DNA of 64,000 nucleotides from Saccharothrix australiensis (GTDB lineage: Bacteria; Actinomycetota; Actinomycetes; Mycobacteriales; Pseudonocardiaceae). Under the pieces are notes generated by a model. It saw only the letters and a list, made by a program, of their open reading frames with translations, was not told the DNA's origin and made no database searches. This document shows, in pieces, positions 28,832-48,356 of the stretch. Positions within the stretch are counted from its first letter, which is position 1; each line of letters opens with the position of its first letter. The DNA lies in contig NZ_RBXO01000001.1 in NCBI RefSeq assembly GCF_003634935.1, positions 1,054,001 through 1,118,000 of the forward strand. The letters run 5' to 3'. Made by a program: the position numbers and the translations under genes.

Positions 28832-28852
28832 AACCGTTGCGGCTCAACGGTT
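28832..28852. terminator. Hairpin over the peptidase stop codon
   Basis: AACCGTTG at 28832-28839 and its complement at 28845-28852 form a short hairpin straddling the stop codon of the minus-strand peptidase (28844-28846). It could terminate that gene. Confidence 0.45.
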
Positions 28853-30322
28853 CGACGCGGACTGCACGAAGGCCGCGAGGTCCTTCGACTGCTGCACCCG
28901 CGACGGCTCGTGGACGTACATCATGTGCCCGGCGGGGTAGTAGGCCGCTTCGACGTTGTCGTGCAGCTCCGCCGGGATCGCCAGGTGCGCCACCACGTGC
29001 TCGGCCGCGTAGTACGGCGTCGCGCCGTCGTAGTGCCCGTACGCGATGTGCACCTTGAGGTCCGGGTTCGCCCGCATCGCCGCCGCCAACCGGTTCGCCA
29101 CGGTGACGTGCGACCCCTCGAACTCCTTGTACGACCAGGGGTGCACGTTCCGGGTCAGGATCTCGTACGGCAGGTCGTTCCGGTAGTCCAGTTCCGCCCG
29201 CAGGTAGTGGTTCAGCGCGGCCGTGTACGGGCCGAGGATCGCCGAGTACGACGGGTCCTCGCTGAACAGCTCGCGGCCGTAGTCGACGTCCGCGCCGGTG
29301 AACCGGGAGTCCAACCGCCCCACGACCTTGCGCTGCGACCGCAGCACCTCGGTGAAGAACCGCACGTGCTCCACGCGCAGGTTCACGCGGTCCACGTAGT
29401 CCTCGGACAGCCCGGTCAGCGCCGCGTACCGCGACACGACCGAGGCGCGCTCCTCCTCCGTGAGCCGGTGTCCGCGCGCGAGCGCCCACGGGTAGTCGCG
29501 GGACGCGAACTCCTCGGCCTCGGCCAGCACCTCCTCCAACGGCCGCGAGCCGTGCAGGCCGTGGTAGTGCGCGATCGCCGCATAGGTGGGCAGGAACAGC
29601 GAGTACGGCAGGTCGTTCCCCTCGCTGAAGTCCAGCGTCGCGAAGTCCAGCACCGACGAGATGAGCATCAACCCGTTGAGGTACATGCCGTAGCGGGTCT
29701 GGAGGTGCTCGGCCAGCGCCGCCGCGCGGGTCGTGCCGTACGACTCGCCCGCGAGGAACTTCGGCGACAGCCACCGGCCGTTGCGCGAGGTCCACAGCCG
29801 GATCACCTCGCCGACCGACTCCAGGTCGCCCTGGAAGCCGTGGAACTCGCCCGGCTTCTCGCCCTTGGCGGCGCGGGAGTAGCCGGTGGAGACGGGGTCG
29901 ATGAACACCAGGTCGCTGTGCGCCAGCAGCGTCTCCGGGTTGTCCACCAGGTCGTAGGGCGGCGGCACGAGGTCGCCCACGTCGCCGGACACCACGCGGC
30001 GCGGTCCGAGCAGCCCCAGGTGCAGCCACACGCTCGACGAGCCGGGCCCGCCGTTGAACGCGAACGTCACCGGCCGCTTGGCCGCGTCCGCGCCGTCCAG
30101 GGTGTACGCGGTGAGGAAGACCTCCGCCTTGGCCAGGTGCCCGTCGAACTTGCCGTCGGTCAGCACCTCCCTGCGCAGCACCACCCGACCGGTGGTCGTC
30201 GTGTAGTTCAGCTTGCGGCGCTTGACGGTGATGCTGTGCTGGGTGGTGACGAGGTCGTCGGTGGGGGCGTCCTTGCCGGTCGCCTCGGCGGTCCGCTCGT
30301 CCCCGGTGTCGGTTTCGGTCAT
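28844..30322 (-). CDS. S10-family serine carboxypeptidase-like protein
   Basis: A 492-aa alpha/beta-hydrolase peptidase. The family signature is clear: FNGGPGSSS at 89-97, nucleophile Ser194 in GESYGTTRA, Asp432 in GHYDGATPY and His466 in YYPAGHMMY. S10 enzymes remove C-terminal residues from peptides or act as acyltransferases. There is no signal peptide, so this bacterial member is probably cytoplasmic. It lies next to the peptide importer but on the other strand, which fits use of imported peptides without proving it. It is divergent from the glycosylase gene, 29 bases apart. Confidence 0.92.
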   Translation of the reverse strand: MTETDTGDERTAEATGKDAPTDDLVTTQHSITVKRRKLNYTTTTGRVVLRREVLTDGKFDGHLAKAEVFLTAYTLDGADAAKRPVTFAFNGGPGSSSVWLHLGLLGPRRVVSGDVGDLVPPPYDLVDNPETLLAHSDLVFIDPVSTGYSRAAKGEKPGEFHGFQGDLESVGEVIRLWTSRNGRWLSPKFLAGESYGTTRAAALAEHLQTRYGMYLNGLMLISSVLDFATLDFSEGNDLPYSLFLPTYAAIAHYHGLHGSRPLEEVLAEAEEFASRDYPWALARGHRLTEEERASVVSRYAALTGLSEDYVDRVNLRVEHVRFFTEVLRSQRKVVGRLDSRFTGADVDYGRELFSEDPSYSAILGPYTAALNHYLRAELDYRNDLPYEILTRNVHPWSYKEFEGSHVTVANRLAAAMRANPDLKVHIAYGHYDGATPYYAAEHVVAHLAIPAELHDNVEAAYYPAGHMMYVHEPSRVQQSKDLAAFVQSASNR

Positions 30323-36120: not shown

Positions 36121-36266
36121 CTGGATCGTTTCTCTCAGCGCGTACGTCCTCTACCGCACTCGCGGCGCTGGTCACGGACCTGCGTGTCCCGCATCACCCG
36201 GCGACCGTGGTCACAACGGGCCTTGCGAACCCGTCGGAAACGACCTCGCGGTGCGACCATAGACGT

Positions 36267-37592
36267 ATGGCTGCTGTGAAGTCGCAACCCACACGGATCG
36301 TGATTGTCGGCGGTGGGTACGTCGGCATGTACACCGCGCTGGGATTGCAGAAGAAGCTGCGTTCCGGTGAGGCGTCGGTCACGGTCATCGACCCACAGCC
36401 CCACATGACCTACCAGCCGTTCCTCCCCGAGGCGGCGGCCGGTTCCATCGAACCGCGCCACGTCGTCGTGCCGCTGCGCAAGGTCCTCAAGCGCTGCCAC
36501 GTCGTCACCGGCCGCGCGACGAAGATCGAGCACGCCCGCAAGGCCGTGACGGTCGAGCTGGCCGACGGCCACGTCGCCGAGTACGAGTACGACGTGCTCG
36601 TGTCGGCCCTGGGCGCGATCTCGCGGACCCTGCCGATCCCCGGCCTGCCCGAGGTCGGCATCGGCATGAAGACCATCGGCGAGGCGATCTACCTGCGCAA
36701 CCACGTGTTGTCGCGGCTCGACCAGGCCGCCAGCACCGTCGACCCGGAGCTGCGCCGCCGCCTGCTGAGCTTCGTCGTCATCGGCGGCGGCTTCGCGGGC
36801 ATCGAGACGCTGGCCGAGCTGGAGGACATGGCGCGCTACGCGCTGCGCTACTACGAGGGCCTCAAGCAGGAGGACATGAACTGGGTGCTGGTCGAGGCCA
36901 CCAACCGGATCATGCCGGAGGTGAGCGCCCGGCTCGGCGTCTACACGGTCGAGCAGCTCGAAAAGCGCGGCATCAAGTGCTACCTCGACACGCGCGTCAA
37001 GTCGATGGAGGGCGGCCACGTCGTCCTCGACGACGGCACCGAGTTCGACTCGGACACCATCATCTGGACGGCCGGCATGAAGGCCAACCCGATGCTGCGC
37101 AACACCGACCTCCCGCTGGACCCCCGCGGCCGGGTGCAGTGCACCGCCGCCATGCAGGTCGTCGGCCTGCCGGGCGTGTGGGCGGCGGGCGACTGCTCGG
37201 CGGTGCCCGACCTGTCGCGCACCGAGGAGGACCCGACGGCGACCTGCGTGCCGAACGCGCAGCACGCGATCCGGCAGTCGAAGCTGCTGGCGAAGAACAT
37301 CGTGGCCAGCCTGCGCGGCAAGGAGCCGAAGGACTACTTCCACAAGTACCTCGGCTCGGTGGCCGGCCTCGGCCTCTACAAGGGCGTCGCGGACGTGTTC
37401 GGGCTGCGCTTCAAGGGCGTCGTCGCCTGGTTCATGCACCGCAGCTACCACGTGATGTTCATGCCCACGGTGAACCGGAAGTTCCGGGTGTTCGTGGACT
37501 GGACGCAGGCCCTGTTCTCGGGCCGCGAGGTGGTCGCCCTCGGCCAGATCCACGAGCCGAAGGCGGAGTTCGACCGGGCGACGAAGAGCTGA
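36267..37592 (+). CDS. ndh: Type II NADH dehydrogenase (NDH-2)
   Basis: A 441-aa flavoprotein that passes electrons from NADH to menaquinone without pumping protons, on the inner face of the membrane. Two Rossmann dinucleotide motifs are visible: GGGYVG (15-20) for FAD and GGGFAGIE (173-180) for NADH. MTYQPFLPEAAAG and a VWAAGDCSAVPD segment are typical. The C-terminal part carries amphipathic and hydrophobic stretches for membrane attachment. I chose ATG 36267 over a GTG at 36207; no clear Shine-Dalgarno precedes it. It could share the quinone pool with the window's sugar dehydrogenases, which is inference. Confidence 0.94.
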   Translation: MAAVKSQPTRIVIVGGGYVGMYTALGLQKKLRSGEASVTVIDPQPHMTYQPFLPEAAAGSIEPRHVVVPLRKVLKRCHVVTGRATKIEHARKAVTVELADGHVAEYEYDVLVSALGAISRTLPIPGLPEVGIGMKTIGEAIYLRNHVLSRLDQAASTVDPELRRRLLSFVVIGGGFAGIETLAELEDMARYALRYYEGLKQEDMNWVLVEATNRIMPEVSARLGVYTVEQLEKRGIKCYLDTRVKSMEGGHVVLDDGTEFDSDTIIWTAGMKANPMLRNTDLPLDPRGRVQCTAAMQVVGLPGVWAAGDCSAVPDLSRTEEDPTATCVPNAQHAIRQSKLLAKNIVASLRGKEPKDYFHKYLGSVAGLGLYKGVADVFGLRFKGVVAWFMHRSYHVMFMPTVNRKFRVFVDWTQALFSGREVVALGQIHEPKAEFDRATKS

Positions 37593-37696: not shown

Positions 37697-37771
37697 TTGA
37701 CATTGCGTAACGTGAACCCGAGACTACGACTGGCGCGCCACCAAAAGTGTGACGCGCCAGTGGGGAGAGAG
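37697..37771 (+). promoter_or_regulatory. Promoter and leader hairpin of the peptide/ATP-grasp operon
   Basis: TTGACA at 37697-37702 is a perfect -35 box, with GAGACT at 37720-37725 (17-base spacing) as a weaker -10. Immediately downstream, ACTGGCGCG (37729-37737) and its complement (37753-37761) form a hairpin in the leader, ending at the purine-rich ribosome binding site GGGGAGAGAGG (37762-37772). The hairpin is well placed to control translation or to act as an operator. Confidence 0.6.
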
Positions 37772-37781
37772 GTGACCCGCG

Positions 37782-37904
37782 ATGTCGCTTGAGGAGCTGG
37801 CCGCACAGCTTCGCCGCGGTGAGATCGAGGACCGTGCCCTGACGGAGTACGCCGCCGAGTACGCCACGGCCGAGCAGCTGTTCCGAAGCAAGAAAGACGA
37901 CTGA
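37782..37904 (+). CDS. 40-aa peptide, candidate precursor for the ATP-grasp enzyme
   Basis: A small gene with ATG at 37782, a leader hairpin and a purine-rich ribosome binding site, ending 2 bases before the ATP-grasp gene. The product is acidic and helix-forming: it starts MSLEELAAQLRRGEI, has a central TEYAAEY and ends FRSKKDD. It contains eight Glu/Asp in the first 30 residues, and Thr, Ser and Lys side chains in the last 20 that could be linked to carboxylates. No Cys, no signal peptide. Position and size match a RiPP precursor for the ATP-grasp ligase, which is an inference; it might instead be a small regulatory subunit of it. Confidence 0.7.
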   Translation: MSLEELAAQLRRGEIEDRALTEYAAEYATAEQLFRSKKDD

Positions 37905-37906
37905 GC

Positions 37907-39025
37907 ATGGCCGCTTCCGGGTGGGGGAGCGCGCCGGTTCCCCCGCCCGAGGCCGCCCGGCCGGTCCGCCCGACCCCGCTGCTGCTCCAGGGTCAGGACT
38001 ACTTCTTCCGGTCACCCGTCAAGAACCTGGACTTCCAGGAGCACGTCCACCGCCACGACCTGGTCGACGAGGGCGACGGCAGCCCCGTCCCCTGCGTGCT
38101 GGTCCTCGCCCGCGCCGCCGACATGGAGATGAACGCGCTCTCCATCGCCCTGGCCGAGCGCGGCATCCGGATGGCCCGCGTCGACGCCGACCGCTGCGTC
38201 GACCTGCCCCTCACCGTCTACACCGACGCGCCCCTGCTCGAACTCGACCGCTGGCTGCTGCGCCCGCTGCTGGTGTGGCGCCGCCACTTCGAGCTGTCCG
38301 CGCTCCAGGTCGAACCGGGCACGCTGGCCGGCGCGTACGCCGTGGACCAGTGGGGATCGGTCGCGAACTGGCTCTCCACGCGCGCCGACTGGGCGCACGT
38401 CAACCCCGCCCGCGCGAGCGCGCACCTCGACCGGCTGACCCAGTTGTCGGACGCGTCGGCGTTCGGCCTGGCGGTGCCGCGCACGATGGTGACCACCCGA
38501 CCGGGGCGCACCCGGCCCGGTGGCGCCCGGTGCATCGTCAAGACCGCCGGGCGGCACCTGCTGGAGCCGCGCCCCGGCGTGCAGCACGGGCTGTTCCCGC
38601 GACCCCTGGAGACCAGCCGCTCCGGTGACGTCCCGGAGCCCGCGCCGGTCATCGTGCAGGAGTACGTGCCCTCGGACACCGAGCTCCGGGTGTTCGTGGT
38701 GGGCGAGCGCACCCTGGCGTTCCAGGTCGACAAGCTCGACCCGGCGCAGCTGTGGGTGGACCCCGAGGCGGTCCGGGTCACGCCGGTCGACGTGCCGCCC
38801 CGCCTGGCGGACCGCCTGCTGGCCCTGGCGCGGCACTGGCGGTTGCAGGTCGCGGCGTTCGACCTGCTCGTCGCGGGCGGTGACCACGTGTTCCTGGAGG
38901 TCAACGTCAACTGCGACTGGCGTTGGTTCGAGCACCGGGCGGAGGACGAGCGGGTGTCCGACGCCGTGCACGAGTGGGTGGCGGCGCGCTTCAAGGAGCT
39001 TCTCCGTGCGGGTAAAGGTCGCTGA
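37907..39025 (+). CDS. ATP-grasp ligase, RiPP maturase-like
   Basis: A 372-aa protein resembling the ATP-grasp peptide maturases (MvdD/TgmB group) that form ester or amide links between side chains of a precursor peptide. Parts in order: an unusual 60-residue N-terminal extension; a pre-ATP-grasp domain (VLVLARAADMEMNALSIALA, about 64-160); the connector DWAHVNPARA ... RLTQLSDASAFGLAVPRTMVTT (161-197); the ATP-grasp domain with Lys212 in CIVKTAG, IVQEYVP, and metal-binding Asp319 and Glu331-x-Asn333 in FLEVNVN. It begins 2 bases after the 40-codon gene. No transporter or peptidase follows, so a third component would be elsewhere. A peptide-independent ligase is the alternative. Confidence 0.85.
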   Translation: MAASGWGSAPVPPPEAARPVRPTPLLLQGQDYFFRSPVKNLDFQEHVHRHDLVDEGDGSPVPCVLVLARAADMEMNALSIALAERGIRMARVDADRCVDLPLTVYTDAPLLELDRWLLRPLLVWRRHFELSALQVEPGTLAGAYAVDQWGSVANWLSTRADWAHVNPARASAHLDRLTQLSDASAFGLAVPRTMVTTRPGRTRPGGARCIVKTAGRHLLEPRPGVQHGLFPRPLETSRSGDVPEPAPVIVQEYVPSDTELRVFVVGERTLAFQVDKLDPAQLWVDPEAVRVTPVDVPPRLADRLLALARHWRLQVAAFDLLVAGGDHVFLEVNVNCDWRWFEHRAEDERVSDAVHEWVAARFKELLRAGKGR

Positions 39026-39377
39026 GCACGCGGCACGGCGCCACGAGGGCGGTGTCGCGGTGCCGGGTGGCGGACGCCGCCGCGCGCGTGGCACGCCCGC
39101 GCCACCCCGGTCCGGCGGCACCGGACGGGTGGGGGAGACCGGTCCGGTCGATGCACGGCCCCACCCGTCCGGGATTGCCCCGCGCACGCACCGTGGCGGT
39201 GGTCCGGCCCGCGTCGTCGCGGCCGGCGGGCATCGTGCCCGATCACGGCCATGCCCGGATGCGCGAATCGTCGTGGGCCATCCGTCGCAATGCGCAAATC
39301 TGGTTGCTGCCACTCCGCTTTCTGGTACCTACTTCACCGCATCATTGCGGGGAGAACTCGGAGAACACACTTCCCGC

Positions 39378-39393
39378 TGTGATCTCTATCACG
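39378..39393. promoter_or_regulatory. CRP/FNR-like palindrome
   Basis: TGTGATCTCTATCACG matches the CRP-type pattern TGTGA-N6-TCACA with one mismatch. Actinobacterial CRP/GlxR regulators use similar sites. The nearest downstream gene is the tRNA, 131 bases away, so its target is unclear. Confidence 0.4.
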
Positions 39394-39429
39394 AAGTGGT
39401 ACTCACGTTGTGCTCGGTTGGTCCATTAC

Positions 39430-39460
39430 CTCAATGAGCGCAATAGCGGATCTCATTGAG
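39430..39460. repeat. 9-base inverted repeat upstream of the tRNA
   Basis: CTCAATGAG (39430-39438) and CTCATTGAG (39452-39460) are perfect complements separated by 13 bases; each arm is itself almost a palindrome. It ends 64 bases before the tRNA. It may be an operator or a terminator of unknown transcript. Confidence 0.6.
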
Positions 39461-39524: not shown

Positions 39525-39598
39525 GCCCCCGTAGCCCAATCGGTAGAGGCAGGCTCCTTAAAAGAGTCACAGTACGGGTTCGAATCCCGTCGGGGGCA
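39525..39598 (+). tRNA. Atypical tRNA, anticodon UAA, short variable loop
   Basis: A 74-base cloverleaf: 7-bp acceptor (GCCCCCG with CGGGGGC), a Leu-type D arm (3-bp stem GCC/GGC and loop with AATCGGTAGA), a 5-bp anticodon stem with one G-U pair, loop CTTAAAA giving anticodon UAA, a 5-base variable loop ACAGT, and a standard T arm (ACGGG, TTCGAAT, CCCGT). Base 73 is A; CCA is not encoded. UAA reads the Leu codon TTA, but tRNA-Leu normally has a long class II variable arm, missing here. It could be a special TTA reader, a tRNA of altered identity, or a decayed gene. Confidence 0.8.
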
Positions 39599-39937
39599 CG
39601 TCAGCCGCAACCTTCGTCGTCACTCGACTGTCGGGTGATCACGATCGGGTGGTGTAGTGCGCGCACGGAGCCCACTTGCGAAGGCTCGTCACATTACTGC
39701 GGCCCGGTTCTGTCAATGCTCCGATGGGGCTGTCTTCCGCGCGGGACCGGTAGCGCACGACGACGGGCCGAACACCGGTCATCGCGATCCCGGCCGTGCG
39801 CCCATCGTGCCGGCGCGGTACGGCGGGCGGATATCGCGCCCCGACCCGCCGAACGGCCCGTGCAACGCCGAACGGCGGGGCCCGGTGACATCCCGCGGGC
39901 TCCCGCCGTTCGCCGTCGCACGAGGCGTCCCACGCCG
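39599..39937. other. Intergenic region after the tRNA
   Basis: About 340 bases between the tRNA and the end of the DUF885 gene. I see no gene, strong terminator or attachment-site duplication of the tRNA 3' end. Confidence 0.5.
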
Positions 39938-41569
39938 TCACCCCCGGGCGGCCACCCAGGCCCGCACGACGTCGTCCAGCACCGCCAGCGGCAGCGGCCC
40001 GCCGCCGAGCACCACGTCGTGGAACGCCCGGATGTCGAACCGGTCGCCCAGCGCGCGCTCCGCCTCGGCCCGCATCCGCTGGATCTCCAACCGCCCCACC
40101 ATGTACGCGAGGGCCTGGCCCGGCGCGGCGATGTACCGGTCGACCTCGGACTCGATCTCCACCTGCGCCAGCGGCGTGTTCTCCCGCAGGTACGCGACGG
40201 CCTGCTCGCGGCTCCAGCCGTGCGCGTGCAGCCCGGTGTCCACCACCAGCCGCCCGGCGCGCATCGAGTCCATCGCCACCATGCCCAGCCGCGCCACGTC
40301 GTCGGAGTACAGGCCCATCTCGTCGGCCAGCCGCTCGCAGTACAGGCCCCAGCCCTCCAGGTACCCGGTGACGGTCGCGACGCGGCGCAGCATCGGCAGC
40401 CCGGTCAGCTCCTGCGCCAGCACGATCTGGAAGTGGTGCCCCGGCACGGCCTCGTGGAACGCGATCGCCTCCGCCTGGTACCGGAAGCGCTCCTCCACGC
40501 GGTGCGTGTTGGCGTAGTAGGTGCCCGGCCGCGCGCCGTTCATCGACGGCGGCGCGTAGTAGGCCGTCGGCGCGCCCGGCGCGTCCACGGCGGGCACCGG
40601 CTCCACCTCGCACCGCTTCGCGGGCAAGCGCCCGAACCAGCGCGGGGCGACCTCCTCGGCCCGCGCCACGGCCTCGCGCGCGGCGGAGATCAGCTCGTCC
40701 TCGGACTTCCAGCGCAGCGCCGGGTCGGTGCGCATCCGCTCGAAGACCTCGGCGGTGTCGCGCGTGCCGAAGACCCGCTCGCCCAGCTCGGCGTACTCCT
40801 CGGCGAGCCGGGCCATGATCTCCAGGCCGGTGCGGTGCAGCTCCTCGGGCGTCCGGTCCGTGGTGGTCTGGACGCGCGCCAGGCGCGCGTAGACGGCGTC
40901 CCCGCCGGGCAGGTGGCACAGGCCCACCCGGTCCGCGGGACGGCCGACGAGGCCCGCGACGGCCTCGCGGTACGCGGCGAACGCGGGCCGCACCTCCTCG
41001 GCGATCAGCCGGTCGCGCTCGGCGGTGAACGCCGCGCCGCCCGACGGCCGGGCGAACGGGTCCTCGTCGGCCGCGAGGTACCGGTCCAGGTAGGCGACGC
41101 ACGCGTCCAGCAGGTGCTGGACGGGCGTGCGGCCGGCGGCGGAGCCGGCGACGTGCCGCTCGGCGACCGTGCGCAGGAACCGCGGGATCGCGGCCAGCCG
41201 GGACAGGTAGTCGCGCTCCTGGTCCTCGCCCGTGATCACCGTCATCGGCAGCGTCGACAGCAGCTCGCCGGCAGGCGCGAAGAAGGAGTCGGTGATGGTG
41301 TGCTCGACGGCCCGCGCGTCGAGCAGGTCGAGCGTCGACTCCGCCTGCTGGACGATCACCGCGCGGGTCACGGGGTCGTCGTCGTCCGGCAGCGCCTTGG
41401 CGCGCTCGGCGATCGACCGCGCGGCGGCCCGCGCCGATTCCTCGGCCGCCTCGCCGTGGTCGGCGAGGAGGTGGTCGTAACCGGGCAGCCCGAATACCGT
41501 CGCGCCCAGCGGCGCCAGCCGGGACATGAGGTCGAGCAGTTCATCGGCGAGCGCTGCCGTGGTGTCCAT
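39938..41569 (-). CDS. DUF885-family putative metallopeptidase
   Basis: A 543-aa, mostly helical protein of the DUF885 family, which resembles M32/M2-type zinc carboxypeptidases. The zinc-binding motif is FHEAVPGHH (371-379), with a downstream YLEGWGLYCERLADEMG region characteristic of the family. No signal peptide. Substrate unknown; peptide or dipeptide hydrolysis is likely. It is transcribed alone, with a distinctly AT-rich upstream stretch (41605-41635) that probably holds its promoter. Confidence 0.9.
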   Translation of the reverse strand: MDTTAALADELLDLMSRLAPLGATVFGLPGYDHLLADHGEAAEESARAAARSIAERAKALPDDDDPVTRAVIVQQAESTLDLLDARAVEHTITDSFFAPAGELLSTLPMTVITGEDQERDYLSRLAAIPRFLRTVAERHVAGSAAGRTPVQHLLDACVAYLDRYLAADEDPFARPSGGAAFTAERDRLIAEEVRPAFAAYREAVAGLVGRPADRVGLCHLPGGDAVYARLARVQTTTDRTPEELHRTGLEIMARLAEEYAELGERVFGTRDTAEVFERMRTDPALRWKSEDELISAAREAVARAEEVAPRWFGRLPAKRCEVEPVPAVDAPGAPTAYYAPPSMNGARPGTYYANTHRVEERFRYQAEAIAFHEAVPGHHFQIVLAQELTGLPMLRRVATVTGYLEGWGLYCERLADEMGLYSDDVARLGMVAMDSMRAGRLVVDTGLHAHGWSREQAVAYLRENTPLAQVEIESEVDRYIAAPGQALAYMVGRLEIQRMRAEAERALGDRFDIRAFHDVVLGGGPLPLAVLDDVVRAWVAARG

Positions 41570-43870: not shown

Positions 43871-44746
43871 TCAGACGTCGAGCGAAGCCCCGTCCGGCAG
43901 CACCTCCACGCCCGCCTCCCGCAACTTGGCCCGCTCCTCGGAGTCCGGGTCGAGCACCGGGTTGGTGTTGTTGAGGTGCGTGTAGATCCGCCGCACGTGG
44001 GGGTGCCTGCGCAGCTCCGGCAGGCTGTGGGTGATCGGCAGGTGGCCCATCGCGGACTGCCCGCCCGCCCGGCCGGTGGCCGCGCCCATCTCCGACGGCG
44101 CGTAGAACGTGCCGTCCAGCAGCACCACGTCGGCCTCCGCGACCAGGTCGTCGAACCCCAGCGGCCACGCGGCCAGGCACGGCGCGTACAGCACGATCCC
44201 GCCGGTCCGCGGGTCGAACAGCCGGTAGGCCACCACCCAGTGCCCCTCGACCGGCGACTCGTCCGCGTACCGCGGGCGCTTGCCGCTGATCGGGAACGCC
44301 GTCACCTCCAGGCCGCCGGACAGCGGGAACGTCTGCTCCGGCTCGACCTGCCGCCACGTCCACTCGGCGTACTTGTCCAGCACCACCCGCGTCCGCGCCA
44401 GCGCGTGCAGGACGGTCGCCGGCGCGTGCACCCGCAGCCCGGCCGCGCCGCGCAACGTCAGCAGCCCCAGCGTGTGGTCGACCTCGGCGTCGGTGAGCAG
44501 CACGCCGCGCACCGGCGTGTCCCGCGGCCCCGGTCCGGGGTCGAGCCACGGCGTCGCGGTGAGCTGGGTCCGGATGTCCGGCGAGGCGTTGAGCAGCCAC
44601 CAGTGCACCCCGTCGCCGCTGACCGCCAGGCAGTCCTGGGTGCGCGCGGGCAGCTGACCGGCCCGCACCTTCCCGCACGGCCCGCACGCGCAGTTCCACT
44701 GCGGCACGCCGCCGCCGGCGGCCGTCCCGAGCAGCACGACCCTCAC
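43871..44746 (-). CDS. pqqB: PQQ biosynthesis protein PqqB
   Basis: A 291-aa metallo-beta-lactamase-fold protein. PqqB is thought to act as an iron-dependent hydroxylase of the Glu-Tyr dipeptide intermediate in PQQ synthesis. The family N-terminus is present: GTAAGGGVPQWNCACGPC at residues 7-24 with zinc-binding Cys19, Cys21 and Cys24. A late THLNNTNP motif supplies further ligands. The start is a GTG overlapping the pqqE stop by 4 bases. It is the last pqq gene of the operon. Confidence 0.95.
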   Translation of the reverse strand: MRVVLLGTAAGGGVPQWNCACGPCGKVRAGQLPARTQDCLAVSGDGVHWWLLNASPDIRTQLTATPWLDPGPGPRDTPVRGVLLTDAEVDHTLGLLTLRGAAGLRVHAPATVLHALARTRVVLDKYAEWTWRQVEPEQTFPLSGGLEVTAFPISGKRPRYADESPVEGHWVVAYRLFDPRTGGIVLYAPCLAAWPLGFDDLVAEADVVLLDGTFYAPSEMGAATGRAGGQSAMGHLPITHSLPELRRHPHVRRIYTHLNNTNPVLDPDSEERAKLREAGVEVLPDGASLDV

Positions 44747-45810
44747 CGCCCCACCCCCCGCATCGCCACCGGCACGGGTCCGGTCTCCGCCGCCAGGATC
44801 CGGTCCACCAGCTCCCGCCGCGGCGACAGCGAGCACACCGGGTCGGTGTTCGCCGCGTCGCCGGTGAGCTGGAACGCCTGGCAGCGGCAGCCGCCGAAGT
44901 CGACCTCCTTGCGCGGGCACGACCGGCACGGCTCGCGCATCCAGTCCACCCCCCGGAACGCGTTGAACGACCGGGAGTCGAACCAGATCCCGCCCAGCGG
45001 CCGGTCCCGCACGTTCTCCACGCCCAGGCCCTCGATCACCGTCGCGGCCGGGCACGGCAGCACGTCGCCGTTCGGCGCGACGGTCAGCTGCCGCGCGCCC
45101 CACCCGTACATGCAGGGCTTGGGGTGCGCCTCGTGGTAGTCCGCGATCACGTAGACGATCTCCATCCGCGACCGCTCCCGCGCCGCGGCCACCACCTCGT
45201 CCGCCCGCCGGAGCTGGTCCCGCGTCGGCAGCAGCGCCGCGCGGTTGCGCAGCGCCCAGCCGTAGTACTGGGTGTTGGCCAGTTCCAACCGGTCCGCGCC
45301 CATCCGCTCGGCGAGCGCGATGATCCCGCCCACGTGGTCCAGGTTCAACCGGTGCAGGACGACGTTGACCGTCAGCGGCAGCCCGGCCTCGCGGACCACC
45401 CGCGCCGCGGTCAGCTTCGGCCCGAACGCCTTCACCCCGGCGATGCGGTCCGCGTCGCCGGGTTCCGCGTCCTGCACGGACAGCTGCACGTGGTCGACGC
45501 CCCGCGCGCGCAGGTCCGCCATCCGCTCGGCGGTCAACCCCAGCCCGCTGGTCACCAGGTTCACGTACGCGCCCAGCCCGCTCGCGTGCGCGACCAGCTC
45601 GGGCAGGTCCCGGCGCGCCAGCGGCTCCCCGCCCGACAGGTGGAACTGGAGCACGCCCAGCTCGCGCGCCTGGTCGAACACCGAGCACCACTCGTCGGTG
45701 CGCAGCTCGGCGTCGCGCCGGACCAGCTCCAGCGGGTTCGAGCAGTACCCGCACCGCAGCGGGCAGCGGTGCGTCAGCTCGGCGAGCAGCCCGAACGGCG
45801 CCTCAGCCAT
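44743..45810 (-). CDS. pqqE: PqqA peptide cyclase PqqE (radical SAM)
   Basis: A 355-aa radical-SAM/SPASM enzyme that makes the carbon-carbon bond between Glu and Tyr of PqqA, the first committed step of PQQ synthesis. The radical-SAM cluster is bound by Cys16, Cys20 and Cys23 (CPLRCGYC). The C-terminal SPASM region has the auxiliary-cluster cysteines around CRSCPRKEVDFGGCRC (295-310) and Cys326. SGGEPL at 59-64 is the SAM-binding GGE motif. It overlaps pqqD by 8 bases and pqqB by 4. Confidence 0.96.
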   Translation of the reverse strand: MAEAPFGLLAELTHRCPLRCGYCSNPLELVRRDAELRTDEWCSVFDQARELGVLQFHLSGGEPLARRDLPELVAHASGLGAYVNLVTSGLGLTAERMADLRARGVDHVQLSVQDAEPGDADRIAGVKAFGPKLTAARVVREAGLPLTVNVVLHRLNLDHVGGIIALAERMGADRLELANTQYYGWALRNRAALLPTRDQLRRADEVVAAARERSRMEIVYVIADYHEAHPKPCMYGWGARQLTVAPNGDVLPCPAATVIEGLGVENVRDRPLGGIWFDSRSFNAFRGVDWMREPCRSCPRKEVDFGGCRCQAFQLTGDAANTDPVCSLSPRRELVDRILAAETGPVPVAMRGVGR

Positions 45811-46072
45811 CGGTCTCGACCACCCTGCGCGCGGCCAGCCTGGTCACCAGGTCGGCGACGTCCTCCGGGAGCACGCCGTCGAACCGCTCGCCCAGCCGCG
45901 CGGCGATGTCGGCGATCGTCCGGTGGCCGTCGCACAGCCCGACGACCGCGGCCGCTGTCTCGTTGAGCACCAGCACGCCCTCCGGGAAGAGCACCACGTG
46001 GCTGTCCCTGGTCCGGTCGTAGGAGGTCTTCACACCCTTGCCCAGCCGGGGTGTGGCGGCGAGATTGGTCAT
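45803..46072 (-). CDS. pqqD: PQQ peptide chaperone PqqD
   Basis: An 89-aa RiPP-recognition-element protein that binds PqqA and presents it to PqqE. It has the PqqD pattern: LVLNETAAAVVGLCDG and a C-terminal helix LPEDVADLVTRLAARRVVE. It is separate from PqqC, unlike in species with a PqqCD fusion. ATG overlaps the pqqC stop by 4 bases and its end overlaps the pqqE start by 8, giving tight coupling. Confidence 0.95.
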   Translation of the reverse strand: MTNLAATPRLGKGVKTSYDRTRDSHVVLFPEGVLVLNETAAAVVGLCDGHRTIADIAARLGERFDGVLPEDVADLVTRLAARRVVETDG

Positions 46073-46761
46073 GATCGCCCCGAGTGGTAGTCGACGGCGT
46101 CGAGGATCGCCCGCAGCACGTCGCATTTGAACGCCAGCGCGGCCACCGCCGCGTCCTGCTGCTCGCGCGTGGCGCAGTTGCGCACCACGAGGTCCAAAGT
46201 GGACTTGCCCTCGCCCTCGATCACCTTCAGCCGCGTGGTGAAGTAGGTGAAGCCCTCTTCGGCGATCCAGGGGTACCGCGCCCGCATGTCCGCCAACCGC
46301 CGCGTCATCAGGCCGCGCGAGAACATCTCGGTGAGCCCCGAGGCCACCGCCTCCACCCAGGGCCTGTTGCGGGCGAAGTTCACGTAGGCGTCCACGGCGA
46401 ACCTGGTGCCGGGCAGCACGTGCCGCTCGTCCAGGACCTCCTCCCTGGTCAGCCCGAGGGATTCGGCCATCCGCAACCAGTTCTCCGCGCCGCCCTCGCC
46501 GGCGCGCTCGCCGTCGTGCCACACGATCCGCTCCCGCCACACCCGTCGGACGTCGGGGTCGGGGCAGTTCGCCAGGATGGCGGCGTCCTTGCGCGGTATG
46601 CAGCGCTGGTAGTACCACCGGTTCGCCGCCCACAGCTGGAGCTCGTCCTTGGACAGCGTCCCGGCGTGCAGGCGGAGGTGGAACGGGTGGGTGTCCCAGT
46701 AGCGGGCGGACAGCGCCCGCAGCCGGGCGGTGAACTCCTCGTCGGGTAACAGCTCGGACAT
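46069..46761 (-). CDS. pqqC: Pyrroloquinoline-quinone synthase PqqC
   Basis: A 230-aa cofactor-free oxidase that carries out the final ring closure and oxidation to PQQ. It is all helical; conserved stretches are RYWDTHPFH (20-28), WAANRWYYQRCIPRKDA (44-60), WHDGERAGEGGAENWLR (81-97) and FSRGLMTRRLADM. ATG 46761 is preceded on its strand by AGGGAGG. It comes second in the operon, 262 bases after pqqA, behind a strong hairpin. Confidence 0.95.
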   Translation of the reverse strand: MSELLPDEEFTARLRALSARYWDTHPFHLRLHAGTLSKDELQLWAANRWYYQRCIPRKDAAILANCPDPDVRRVWRERIVWHDGERAGEGGAENWLRMAESLGLTREEVLDERHVLPGTRFAVDAYVNFARNRPWVEAVASGLTEMFSRGLMTRRLADMRARYPWIAEEGFTYFTTRLKVIEGEGKSTLDLVVRNCATREQQDAAVAALAFKCDVLRAILDAVDYHSGRS

Positions 46762-46979
46762 TCGCGCCTCCCTGGATTCCCGGCTCCGGCGGTGCACCGC
46801 CCACCCACCCGGCCGACGACTGCCGCGCCGACCGACCGCGCGCCGGCGGCGCGGACCACTCGCGCCACGCGCCACCGCGGACCACCCGCGCCGCACGGCG
46901 ACGGCGCGGCGATCGGTGGCGGCGCGGCGATCGGCGTGCGGGCACCGCGCCGTCGCACGGGATCGCGGCGGACGGCGGC

Positions 46980-47011
46980 GTCGTGACTCCGGGCCGTGCC
47001 GGAGCCACGAC
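46980..47011 (-). terminator. Attenuator-like hairpin between pqqA and pqqC
   Basis: Thirteen-base arms (46980-46992 and 46999-47011; 12 Watson-Crick pairs and one G-U on the minus-strand RNA) with a 6-base loop begin 12 bases after the pqqA stop. No U-run. It probably limits read-through so that the peptide precursor mRNA exceeds that of the enzymes. Confidence 0.65.
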
Positions 47012-47023
47012 GGTGGGCGGGAC

Positions 47024-47125
47024 TCAGCCGCGCGCGGCGTACGCGGTGACTTCCATCGGGGTGTCGATGTCCCGGAAGTCCGGCTTGACCCAGGTGGGCT
47101 TCTGCGTCGTCTTCTCGGCTGGCAT
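47024..47125 (-). CDS. pqqA: PQQ precursor peptide PqqA
   Basis: A 33-aa ribosomal peptide from which the PQQ skeleton is cut. The essential Glu-x3-Tyr core is EVTAY, preceded by the conserved Trp and Pro of the leader (PTWVKPDFRDI) and followed by a short AARG tail. ATG 47125 has GAGGAG (47134-47139 on the plus strand as CTCCTC) eight bases upstream. The first gene of the PQQ operon, divergent from the sugar dehydrogenase at 47340. Confidence 0.95.
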   Translation of the reverse strand: MPAEKTTQKPTWVKPDFRDIDTPMEVTAYAARG

Positions 47126-47154
47126 GTCGCTGACTCCTCGGACTGTCGTGTCTT

Positions 47155-47182
47155 CCGTGGGTCGGCGGCGGAATACCCACGG
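47155..47182. promoter_or_regulatory. Inverted repeat in the pqqA/dehydrogenase intergenic region
   Basis: CCGTGGGT (47155-47162) and its complement (47175-47182) lie 30 bases upstream of pqqA, within the 214-bp region between divergent genes. It could be an operator or a leader hairpin. The AT-richer stretch at 47205-47250 is the likely promoter area for one or both genes. Confidence 0.45.
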
Positions 47183-47339
47183 TAGAGCGTTCGGGGTGGA
47201 CGCGCTAGATCGTCAAGAAACCTCACCAATTGAGAAGTGGTCTGTCCTCCGATGAATGTTGCCGCTCCACCCGGGGTGTGGTTGCATCGGAGCAGCCGCC
47301 GTTCCGCCGCCGTCACAGTGCGGACAACGAGGAGCGCAC

Positions 47340-48356
47340 ATGCGTGCTCGTGCAAGCGCGGTTCTGGCTCTGGCGCTGGTGGGTGCGACCGTCGTGGCAC
47401 CGGCCCAAGCCGAACCGTCGGCGCTCGCTGTACGGACGCTCGCCACCGGCCAGGACGTCCCGTGGGACATCGCATTCCTGCCGGACGGCAGCGGCATCTA
47501 CACCGAGCGAGACACCAGGCAGATCAAGAAGCTCACCGGCTCGACGGTCACCGTCCTGCACACCGTGACCGAGGCGGTGCCCGCCGGCGAAGGCGGCCTG
47601 ATGGGCATCGCCGTGTCACCCGACTTCGCCAAGGACAACACCGTCTACATCCACTACACCGCCGCCTCCGACAACCGGATCGCCAAGCTCCGCCTCGGCG
47701 GGACGCCGGAACCGATCGTCACGGGCATACCCAAGAACCGCTTCCACAACGGCGGCGGGCTGGAGTTCGGCCCCGACGGCTACCTCTGGGCGACCACCGG
47801 CGACGCGGGCAACAGCGCCAACGCCCAGAACCTCAACACCCTGGCGGGGAAGGTCCTGCGCTTCACCACGACCGGCGCGCCCGCGCCGGACAACCCGTTC
47901 AACAGCCGCGTCTACTCCTACGGGCACCGCAACTCCGAGGGCATCACGTGGGCCAACGGACGCGCCTACGCGACGGAGTTCGGCAACAACCGGACGGACG
48001 AGCTGAACTGGATCCAGCCCGGCAAGAACTACGGCTGGCCGACGTGCGAAGGCCCGTGCAACGACAACCGGTACGTCAACCCCGTGAAGTCCTGGTCGAA
48101 CCGCGAGGCCGGCCCCACCGGCATCGCCTTCTACAAGAACGCCCTCTACATCGGCGCGGTGGCCGGCCGGCGGGTCTGGAAGATCCCGGTGACCGGTACC
48201 GAGCTGGGCACCCCGCAGTCCGTCTTCACCGGCTACGGCCGAGTGCGCTCGGTCGCGTCGGCCCCGGACGGCACGCTGTGGCTGGGCACGTCCAACCAGG
48301 ACGGCCGAGGCACCCCGGCCGCGACCGACGACCGAATCCTCAGCACCGACGGCTAA
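47340..48356 (+). CDS. Secreted PQQ-type sugar (glucose/sorbosone) dehydrogenase
   Basis: A 338-aa exported six-bladed propeller. A Sec signal peptide with AQA cleavage near residue 25 and no lipobox means the enzyme is released, unlike its lipoprotein paralogue at 1889-2980. Family segments: DVPWDIAFLPDGSGIYTERD, EGGLMGIAVSPDF, FHNGGGLEFGPDGYLWATTG, and NYGWPTCEGPC. ATG 47340 has GAGGAG at 47329-47334. Divergence from the PQQ operon strongly suggests that PQQ is its cofactor. The substrate is probably an aldose but is not determined. Confidence 0.93.
   Translation: MRARASAVLALALVGATVVAPAQAEPSALAVRTLATGQDVPWDIAFLPDGSGIYTERDTRQIKKLTGSTVTVLHTVTEAVPAGEGGLMGIAVSPDFAKDNTVYIHYTAASDNRIAKLRLGGTPEPIVTGIPKNRFHNGGGLEFGPDGYLWATTGDAGNSANAQNLNTLAGKVLRFTTTGAPAPDNPFNSRVYSYGHRNSEGITWANGRAYATEFGNNRTDELNWIQPGKNYGWPTCEGPCNDNRYVNPVKSWSNREAGPTGIAFYKNALYIGAVAGRRVWKIPVTGTELGTPQSVFTGYGRVRSVASAPDGTLWLGTSNQDGRGTPAATDDRILSTDG

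Follow-up and report, generated by a model that had tools for sequence, protein, structure and literature searches.

A 40-codon gene lies immediately upstream of a gene coding for an ATP-grasp ligase in Saccharothrix australiensis, and we asked whether the two genes form a peptide-modifying system, which other genes belong to it and what the ligase may do to the peptide. The question was addressed on a stretch of 64,000 nucleotides (the window) and on the corresponding loci of related genomes.

Organization of the genes and of the 5' leader

Analysis of the window indicated that both genes are present as the initial annotation had described them, namely a 40-codon gene with its own leader that ends 2 bases before the ligase gene. 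The peptide gene (37782-37904, + strand) starts with ATG and codes for a putative modified peptide or precursor of 40 aa, MSLEELAAQLRRGEIEDRALTEYAAEYATAEQLFRSKKDD, and the ligase gene (37907-39025, +) codes for a protein of 372 aa.

On alignment, most of the leaders of 83 carriers were found to share three elements across genera, namely a TTGACA box, a box resembling GAGACT at a distance of 17 nt and a Shine-Dalgarno-like run; in the leader of locus L128 both boxes are absent from the stretch shown. The promoter-like element of the window spans 37697-37725 (+), position 37697 being the first base of the TTGACA box (37697-37702), which is followed after 17 nt by GAGACT (37720-37725), and the Shine-Dalgarno-like sequence GGGGAGAGAGG is located at 37762-37772 (+) ahead of the peptide ATG. 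As a scan with a generic sigma-70 consensus gave no site at the locus, the element is termed promoter-like from its conservation only. Between the two lies a putative sequence element recognised in the leader alignment, an imperfect inverted repeat or conserved CACC(TGAA)-type segment (37730-37760, +). An RNA element in the leader was rejected, since the RNAalifold consensus over 56 distinct leaders was 0.0 and column shuffles were equally zero.

Structural affiliation of the ligase

No Pfam match was obtained for the ligase, and the NCBIfam models TIGR04187, TIGR04185 and TIGR04184 matched it far below their cut-offs (TIGR04187, 91 bits versus 350). Sequence searches of the PDB starting from the ligase reached MdnB, CdnC, AMdnB, MdnC, PsnB and PruB, and a family profile that included distant members matched graspetide synthetases with a best E value of 5e-29 (AMdnB). 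The AlphaFold model (mean pLDDT 76) consists of a disordered stretch followed by a pre-ATP-grasp and an ATP-grasp part. A Foldseek search with this model retrieved MdnC, PruB, PsnB, AMdnB and CdnC at E values from 2e-19 (MdnC) to 1e-15; MdnC with its precursor, PruB and PsnB ranked first, and RimK came after the graspetide enzymes. The ligase thus has a graspetide-synthetase fold, and the fold and profile matches to these five enzymes bear out the resemblance to graspetide maturases that had been proposed initially.

The pre-ATP-grasp domain comprises approximately residues 61-140 (38087-38326, +), with limits read off the model, and the ATP-grasp domain approximately residues 160-370 (38384-39016, +). 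Residues R261, D319, E331 and N333 were invariant and K212 nearly so among 33 aligned sequences, and we assume for them the roles that the ATP-grasp fold assigns. The extra N-terminus of 60 residues noted in the initial annotation is not supported as a special domain: residues 1-45 (37907-38041, +) are predicted to be disordered (pLDDT < 50). The conserved motif PLLLQGQDY...LDFQE starts at residue 24. In three genomes of the Actinosynnema type (L023, L024 and L025) a far longer stretch rich in Pro and Ala takes its place, in L024 with AQGPI repeats, and the ligase frame is open from directly behind the peptide stop.

Distribution and inheritance of the peptide-ligase pair

The first search, covering 60 relatives, yielded 30 loci with a close ligase (L001-L030), which were found in all 25 genomes of the genus (our own included) and in five of 11 others of the family. 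The peptide preceded the ligase in 29 of the 29 loci with a full ligase (L001-L029), and the 30th, L030, begins within the ligase gene. Scanning GTDB genomes with a pattern yielded 75 loci, 69 of which were close (L066-L134). Co-conservation had been fixed beforehand as the refutation test of the initial annotation; the peptide was found upstream of the ligase in all 69 close named loci, with ndh before the peptide in each. The close loci are labelled Pseudonocardiaceae in 68 cases, the exception being L134, labelled Nocardia. This record (Nocardia sp. NRRL S-836) groups with Lentzea on the NDH-2 tree and is possibly a mislabelled strain.

The remaining six of the 75 loci are a contig fragment (L135) and five distant ligases (L136-L140), and no such peptide was seen with the distant ligases. 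The record of L135 is named Melainabacteria and carries a Pseudonocardiaceae-type ligase, so that the bin is possibly contaminated. The ligase of L136 (Sphaerimonospora) lies beside what appear by eye to be a YcaO gene and an ABC transporter. An order-level sample of 397 genomes contained 25 with a match at E <= 1e-25, our own among them, and 24 of the 25 belong to the same family.

The NDH-2 tree of 92 rows required four changes in the presence of the unit, and the path distances of ligase and NDH-2 were correlated (r 0.93 over 900 pairs sampled from 70 rows), which together argue for mostly vertical inheritance.

Boundaries of the unit

The gene to the left is ndh, coding for a type II NADH dehydrogenase (36207-37592, +; Pfam Pyr_redox_2, with NDH2_C just under the cut-off), and to the right lies a tRNA-Leu(UAA) gene (39525-39599, +; ARAGORN), which reads the rare TTA codon (bldA-type). 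The tRNA gene was located just behind the unit in 68 of the 69 named carriers, and the 69th, L091, ends first. Members of the family that lack the unit carry tRNA-Leu(UAA) within about 400 bp after ndh in 22 of 22 cases examined (L162, L165, L168 and L199-L217), on hand-picked stretches of which the 20th in the second batch of 20 proved to be a carrier; in L217 the tRNA is on the other strand. Since ndh and tRNA-Leu adjoin in all 22 unit-less relatives, ndh is a positional neighbour, and a functional link to NDH-2 is not the simplest reading. These boundaries, overlooked in the initial annotation, confine the unit to the peptide, the ligase and, in some loci, a SagB gene.

There is no room for export, immunity, protease or small-molecule biosynthesis genes between ndh and tRNA-Leu. 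The earlier remark that no transporter or protease is adjacent agrees with this, and it would be compatible with an action inside the cell. Anti-phage defence was rejected, as no PADLOC match at E <= 0.01 was obtained for peptide, ligase or SagB, and so was a phage origin, PHROG giving only a weak S6 ligase-like match, for the ligase.

Further along the window, a PQQ biosynthesis-like cluster (43874-48353, -) codes for a lactamase-fold PqqB-like protein, a radical SAM/SPASM protein and a PqqD domain, with a glucose/sorbosone dehydrogenase (47256-48353) beside it; by eye, similar genes were seen in L104 and L128 within about 1.2 kb behind the ligase unit. PqqA precursors carry an E-x3-Y motif. 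This motif is not conserved in the peptide alignment, and a PqqA-like precursor for the nearby cluster was rejected by eye. A Peptidase_S10 serine carboxypeptidase-like protein (28847-30322, -), syntenic in L032, L033 and L034, and a DUF885 protein (39941-41569, -) are also encoded near the unit, and either could in principle process the peptide.

A SagB gene and its decay in the window

The unit has a third gene, which had been overlooked and which is decayed in the window. In 23 of the 25 loci of the same genus an intact open frame overlaps the end of the ligase gene and codes for a SagB-type dehydrogenase (TIGR03605, 115-123 bits versus a cut-off of 78.4; Pfam nitroreductase). Over all SagBs scored the range was 115-125 bits for TIGR03605, and TIGR04511 gave 162-175 bits against a cut-off of 240. 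In the window two ends of this gene remain and the middle is lost or unrecognisable. The remnant of the 5' end (39006-39062, +), which overlaps the ligase end, was 82% identical at the DNA level, over 57 nt, to the intact SagB gene found in L066, and the remnant of the 3' end (39243-39437, +) showed 76% DNA identity over 195 nt to positions 877-1071 of the same SagB. A search of the genome revealed no other intact SagB, the sole match being one of 33% inside a 2502-aa open frame. Pfam analysis of three SagBs over their first ~100 residues revealed no RiPP recognition element, and the SagB model was poor (pLDDT 55).

SagB was found in 23 of the 69 close named loci and was not detected in the other 46, belonging to Lentzea, Kutzneria, Gandjariella, Allokutzneria, Crossiella and Saccharopolyspora together with L128 and L134; the count of 46 includes L091, which ends soon after the ligase. 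Among carriers, the presence of SagB changed five times on the NDH-2 tree and six times on the ligase tree; its history is most simply one of repeated loss, and the change counts alone cannot separate gain from loss.

Selection on the peptide and its C-terminal tail

Within Saccharothrix, Lentzea and Saccharopolyspora the peptide gave pooled dN/dS values of 0.11-0.21 and the ligase values of 0.06-0.21, after pairs of unequal length had been dropped (ligase pairs left, 177 of 253 in Lentzea and 11 of 28 in Saccharopolyspora). Both genes are therefore under purifying selection, in groups with and without SagB. These low values and the co-occurrence in 29/29 and 69/69 loci place the peptide-ligase pair beyond chance. 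The peptide of the window differs from those of four near relatives by four to five non-synonymous differences each, with dN/dS values of 0.13-0.53 on few sites; the value of 0.53, on very few sites, is that against L069. In view of these changes, some relaxation on the window peptide may have followed the loss of SagB. In Lentzea (L079-L097 and other loci) the synonymous differences amounted to pS 0.075 in the peptide gene versus 0.36 in the ligase gene, which suggests an extra constraint on the DNA or RNA of the peptide gene. A genome search gave no second paralogue of the peptide besides the copy in the window.

The peptides of 87 loci, some species counted twice, were aligned and represent 47 distinct peptides. 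The alignment revealed a feature that had been overlooked, a near-invariant KKDx at the C-terminus, encoded in the window as KKDD by the codons at 37890-37901 (+). K(-3) and D(-2) were invariant in all 47 distinct peptides, K(-4) was present in 46 and replaced by R in one, and the last residue was D in 45, S in one and N in one. The peptides of the close loci terminate exactly in KKDD, once in RKDD. Two forms, RSKKDD and RKKDD, are distinguished by a single residue directly ahead of the tail, and the tail is thus tied to the stop codon. Elsewhere in the peptide, L6 and A7 were invariant and position 17 was D or E in 47 of 47.

The peptide is net acidic by composition, as the initial annotation had stated. 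The cross-linking through Thr or Ser near the C-terminus that it had envisaged found no counterpart in the alignment: no Cys, Ser or Thr is conserved in the 47 KKDx peptides, and the conserved tail consists of Lys, Lys, Asp and Asp. Of the Glu/Asp and Ser/Thr/Lys pattern that it had proposed to look for, the Lys and Asp of the tail are conserved and Thr and Ser are not.

Related units in distant actinobacteria

A phylum sample of 396 genomes gave four matches, our own and G594, G505 and G820. In G594 and G505, which belong to another class, the ligases are 34% and 32% identical to that of the window, and peptides of 50 and 49 aa (starts inferred) end in KKDS and KKDN, respectively. The order is peptide, ligase and an overlapping SagB, the SagB of G594 running off the contig end. 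Neither such a peptide nor SagB was present in the stretch examined around the related ligase of G820, which counts against the mechanism proposed below. The ligase of G820 (L171/L174) lies beside an apparent PGM1-like gene, a label that we assigned by eye.

A class sample of 345 genomes gave 16 matches (own included), and SagB was found in one of 19 further loci examined, G1116. The family of G1116 matched in 34 of 200 genomes, and among 20 loci fetched SagB adjoins the ligase in three. Another family matched in 14 of 200 genomes, and none of 10 loci from it showed a SagB. The peptide tails in the three loci with SagB were KKDN (G1285, locus L240, with the order peptide, ligase, SagB), CKGCHGG (G1116) and CNKTHC (G1212); in loci without SagB the upstream peptides were screened with filters only. 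The three-gene order therefore recurs in distant relatives with tails of two kinds, and KKDx is not universal.

Comparison with described systems

The ligase shares with the graspetide synthetases (MdnC/MdnA, PsnB, CdnC and PruB) the pre-ATP-grasp and ATP-grasp fold and the conserved residues. As in graspetide systems, where the precursor gene adjoins the synthetase, a small precursor-like gene is found here, directly upstream and co-conserved in 69/69 loci. In contrast to graspetides, the peptide has no Thr/Ser-rich repeated core and lacks spaced Thr/Ser/Lys donors and Asp/Glu acceptors, in line with the initial remark on missing core repeats; its tail is nearly fixed across genera, export genes are not linked and the ligase falls below all NCBIfam cut-offs. 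Graspetide leaders carry the motif PFFARFL. Neither a conserved Pro-based leader motif (PFFARFL-like, Phhx(1,2)h) nor a GG site was seen by eye in the peptide alignment, and PLADF-like strings occur in the peptides of some genera only. Because neither the core pattern nor the leader motif was found, the unit is not filed as a graspetide system.

With regard to SagB/ThcOx-type peptide dehydrogenases, the SagB of the unit passes the cut-off of TIGR03605 and not that of TIGR04511. Thiazole/oxazole RiPPs combine SagB with YcaO and a Cys/Ser/Thr core, whereas here there is no room for YcaO between ndh and tRNA-Leu and no such core. RimK and LysX are ligases that join a carboxylate to an amino acid or a small amine; they share the ATP-grasp fold, and a reaction at a fixed C-terminus is conceivable, but the ligase of the unit is nearer to graspetide synthetases. 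The carrier LysW has a C-terminal Glu in an EDWGE tail. Compared with LysW/AmCP, the peptide has neither this tail nor conserved cysteines, ending instead in KKD[DNS], and the flanks are ndh and tRNA-Leu instead of linked amino-acid biosynthesis genes.

The account of branch 6 ATP-grasps in Makarova et al. 2022 (PMC8939145) describes two precursor clusters, 367 and 1115, that are distant relatives of each other; their peptides are small and conserved, lack GG or Phhx(1,2)h motifs and are mostly accompanied by a SagB-like nitroreductase, and it suggests that the products possibly lie outside the graspetide class. The KKDx peptides, matched by description to this account, are probably these clusters; the distinct class considered in the initial annotation is thus plausible, but its peptides have probably already been predicted as precursors. 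Relative to that account, the KKDx tail, the ndh/tRNA-Leu locus, the repeated loss of SagB and the vertical inheritance appear to be additions of the present analysis. In the scheme of Carter et al. 2026 (PMC13097080) the numbered groups of graspetides run up to 43; the group account names no SagB, although oxidoreductases and dehydrogenases are referred to, as less frequent, with a supplementary figure. A search of the open PMC literature gave no description of the KKDx tail.

What the ligase may do to the peptide

From the sequences we infer that the peptide is a substrate of the ligase, and the site, chemistry and role of its modification are proposed on the same footing. We give about an even chance to a compact peptide-modification unit in which the ligase would form an amide or isopeptide bond at the KKDx tail, the product being oxidised by SagB in the loci that retain it. 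The ligase would recognise the N-terminal part of the peptide, LxELAxxxRxGE.xD, as its leader, with the KKDx tail at the C-terminus as the reaction site. The ligase would phosphorylate a carboxylate of the tail and couple it to an amine, the most likely product being a Lys-Asp/Glu isopeptide within the peptide and a less likely one an outside amine added to the tail; SagB, where present, would act on this product afterwards. Since peptide and ligase are kept under selection in SagB-less lineages, the ligase step would be the core function. The usual azoline-to-azole step of SagB is unlikely, because the unit has no YcaO and the KKDx peptides have no conserved Cys, Ser or Thr, and in the two Cys/His-tailed units SagB may have a different role. 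Some features of the peptide alignment count against a modification at the tail as proposed: the only invariant tail positions, K(-3) and D(-2), are adjacent residues, Ala replaces the acid of the EY column in L056 (with Glu one residue earlier) and in L060, and in Lentzea the nearby acid at position 22 is Gln. The Cys/His tails of two SagB-bearing units, the low NCBIfam scores of the ligase, the missing graspetide leader motif and the 46 of 69 named carriers in which SagB was not detected count against the proposal as well.

A tail that stays at the extreme C-terminus despite upstream indels, on a peptide whose strong conservation and vertical descent resemble those of a cofactor precursor, would also be expected if the ligase activated a carboxylate of KKDx, either that of the C-terminus or that of the Asp side chain, and coupled it to an amino acid or a small amine, the peptide serving as a tag or carrier and the small molecule being oxidised later by SagB. 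RimK, as the next structural family behind the graspetide synthetases, points the same way. We consider this possible but unlikely, as the nearest relatives in sequence and structure are side-chain cross-linking enzymes, small-molecule biosynthesis genes do not fit between ndh and tRNA-Leu and the last residue varies among D, N and S.

Vertical inheritance, a near-frozen core and the lack of export genes point to a product that stays in the cell and not to an antibiotic that is released. Such a product might be a vertically inherited peptide-derived cofactor or amine carrier, the KKDx C-terminus of which would be charged or cyclised by the ATP-grasp enzyme and oxidised by SagB, a rather doubtful proposal in this specific form. 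It is distinctly unlikely that the peptide is an ordinary graspetide-type RiPP that acts outside the cell after cleavage and export by enzymes from other loci: the ligase fold and the precursor-ligase order would allow it, and some groups in the account of PMC13097080 consist of synthetase and precursor only, but the tail is nearly constant between species, unlike in typical competition peptides, a repeated donor/acceptor motif is absent and the boundaries exclude linked export or immunity genes. That the peptide instead assists the ligase, as a small partner protein or a regulatory subunit, the true substrate lying elsewhere, is very improbable, because a tail fixed to the C-terminus and the other tails of related units look like a core and not like an interface, even though partner proteins of graspetide synthetases are described in PMC13097080 and conservation spans the whole peptide and not the tail alone.

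The locus thus represents a putative minimal peptide-modifying unit of two or three genes, the peptide tail of which is near-constant over much of the family and recurs in distant actinobacteria, in contrast to many known peptide products of ATP-grasp enzymes, which are variable and leave the cell. If the proposed modification at the tail is true, it would mean a new kind of chemistry at the C-terminus of a peptide and a SagB-type role without azoline formation, and possibly a peptide-derived intracellular factor.
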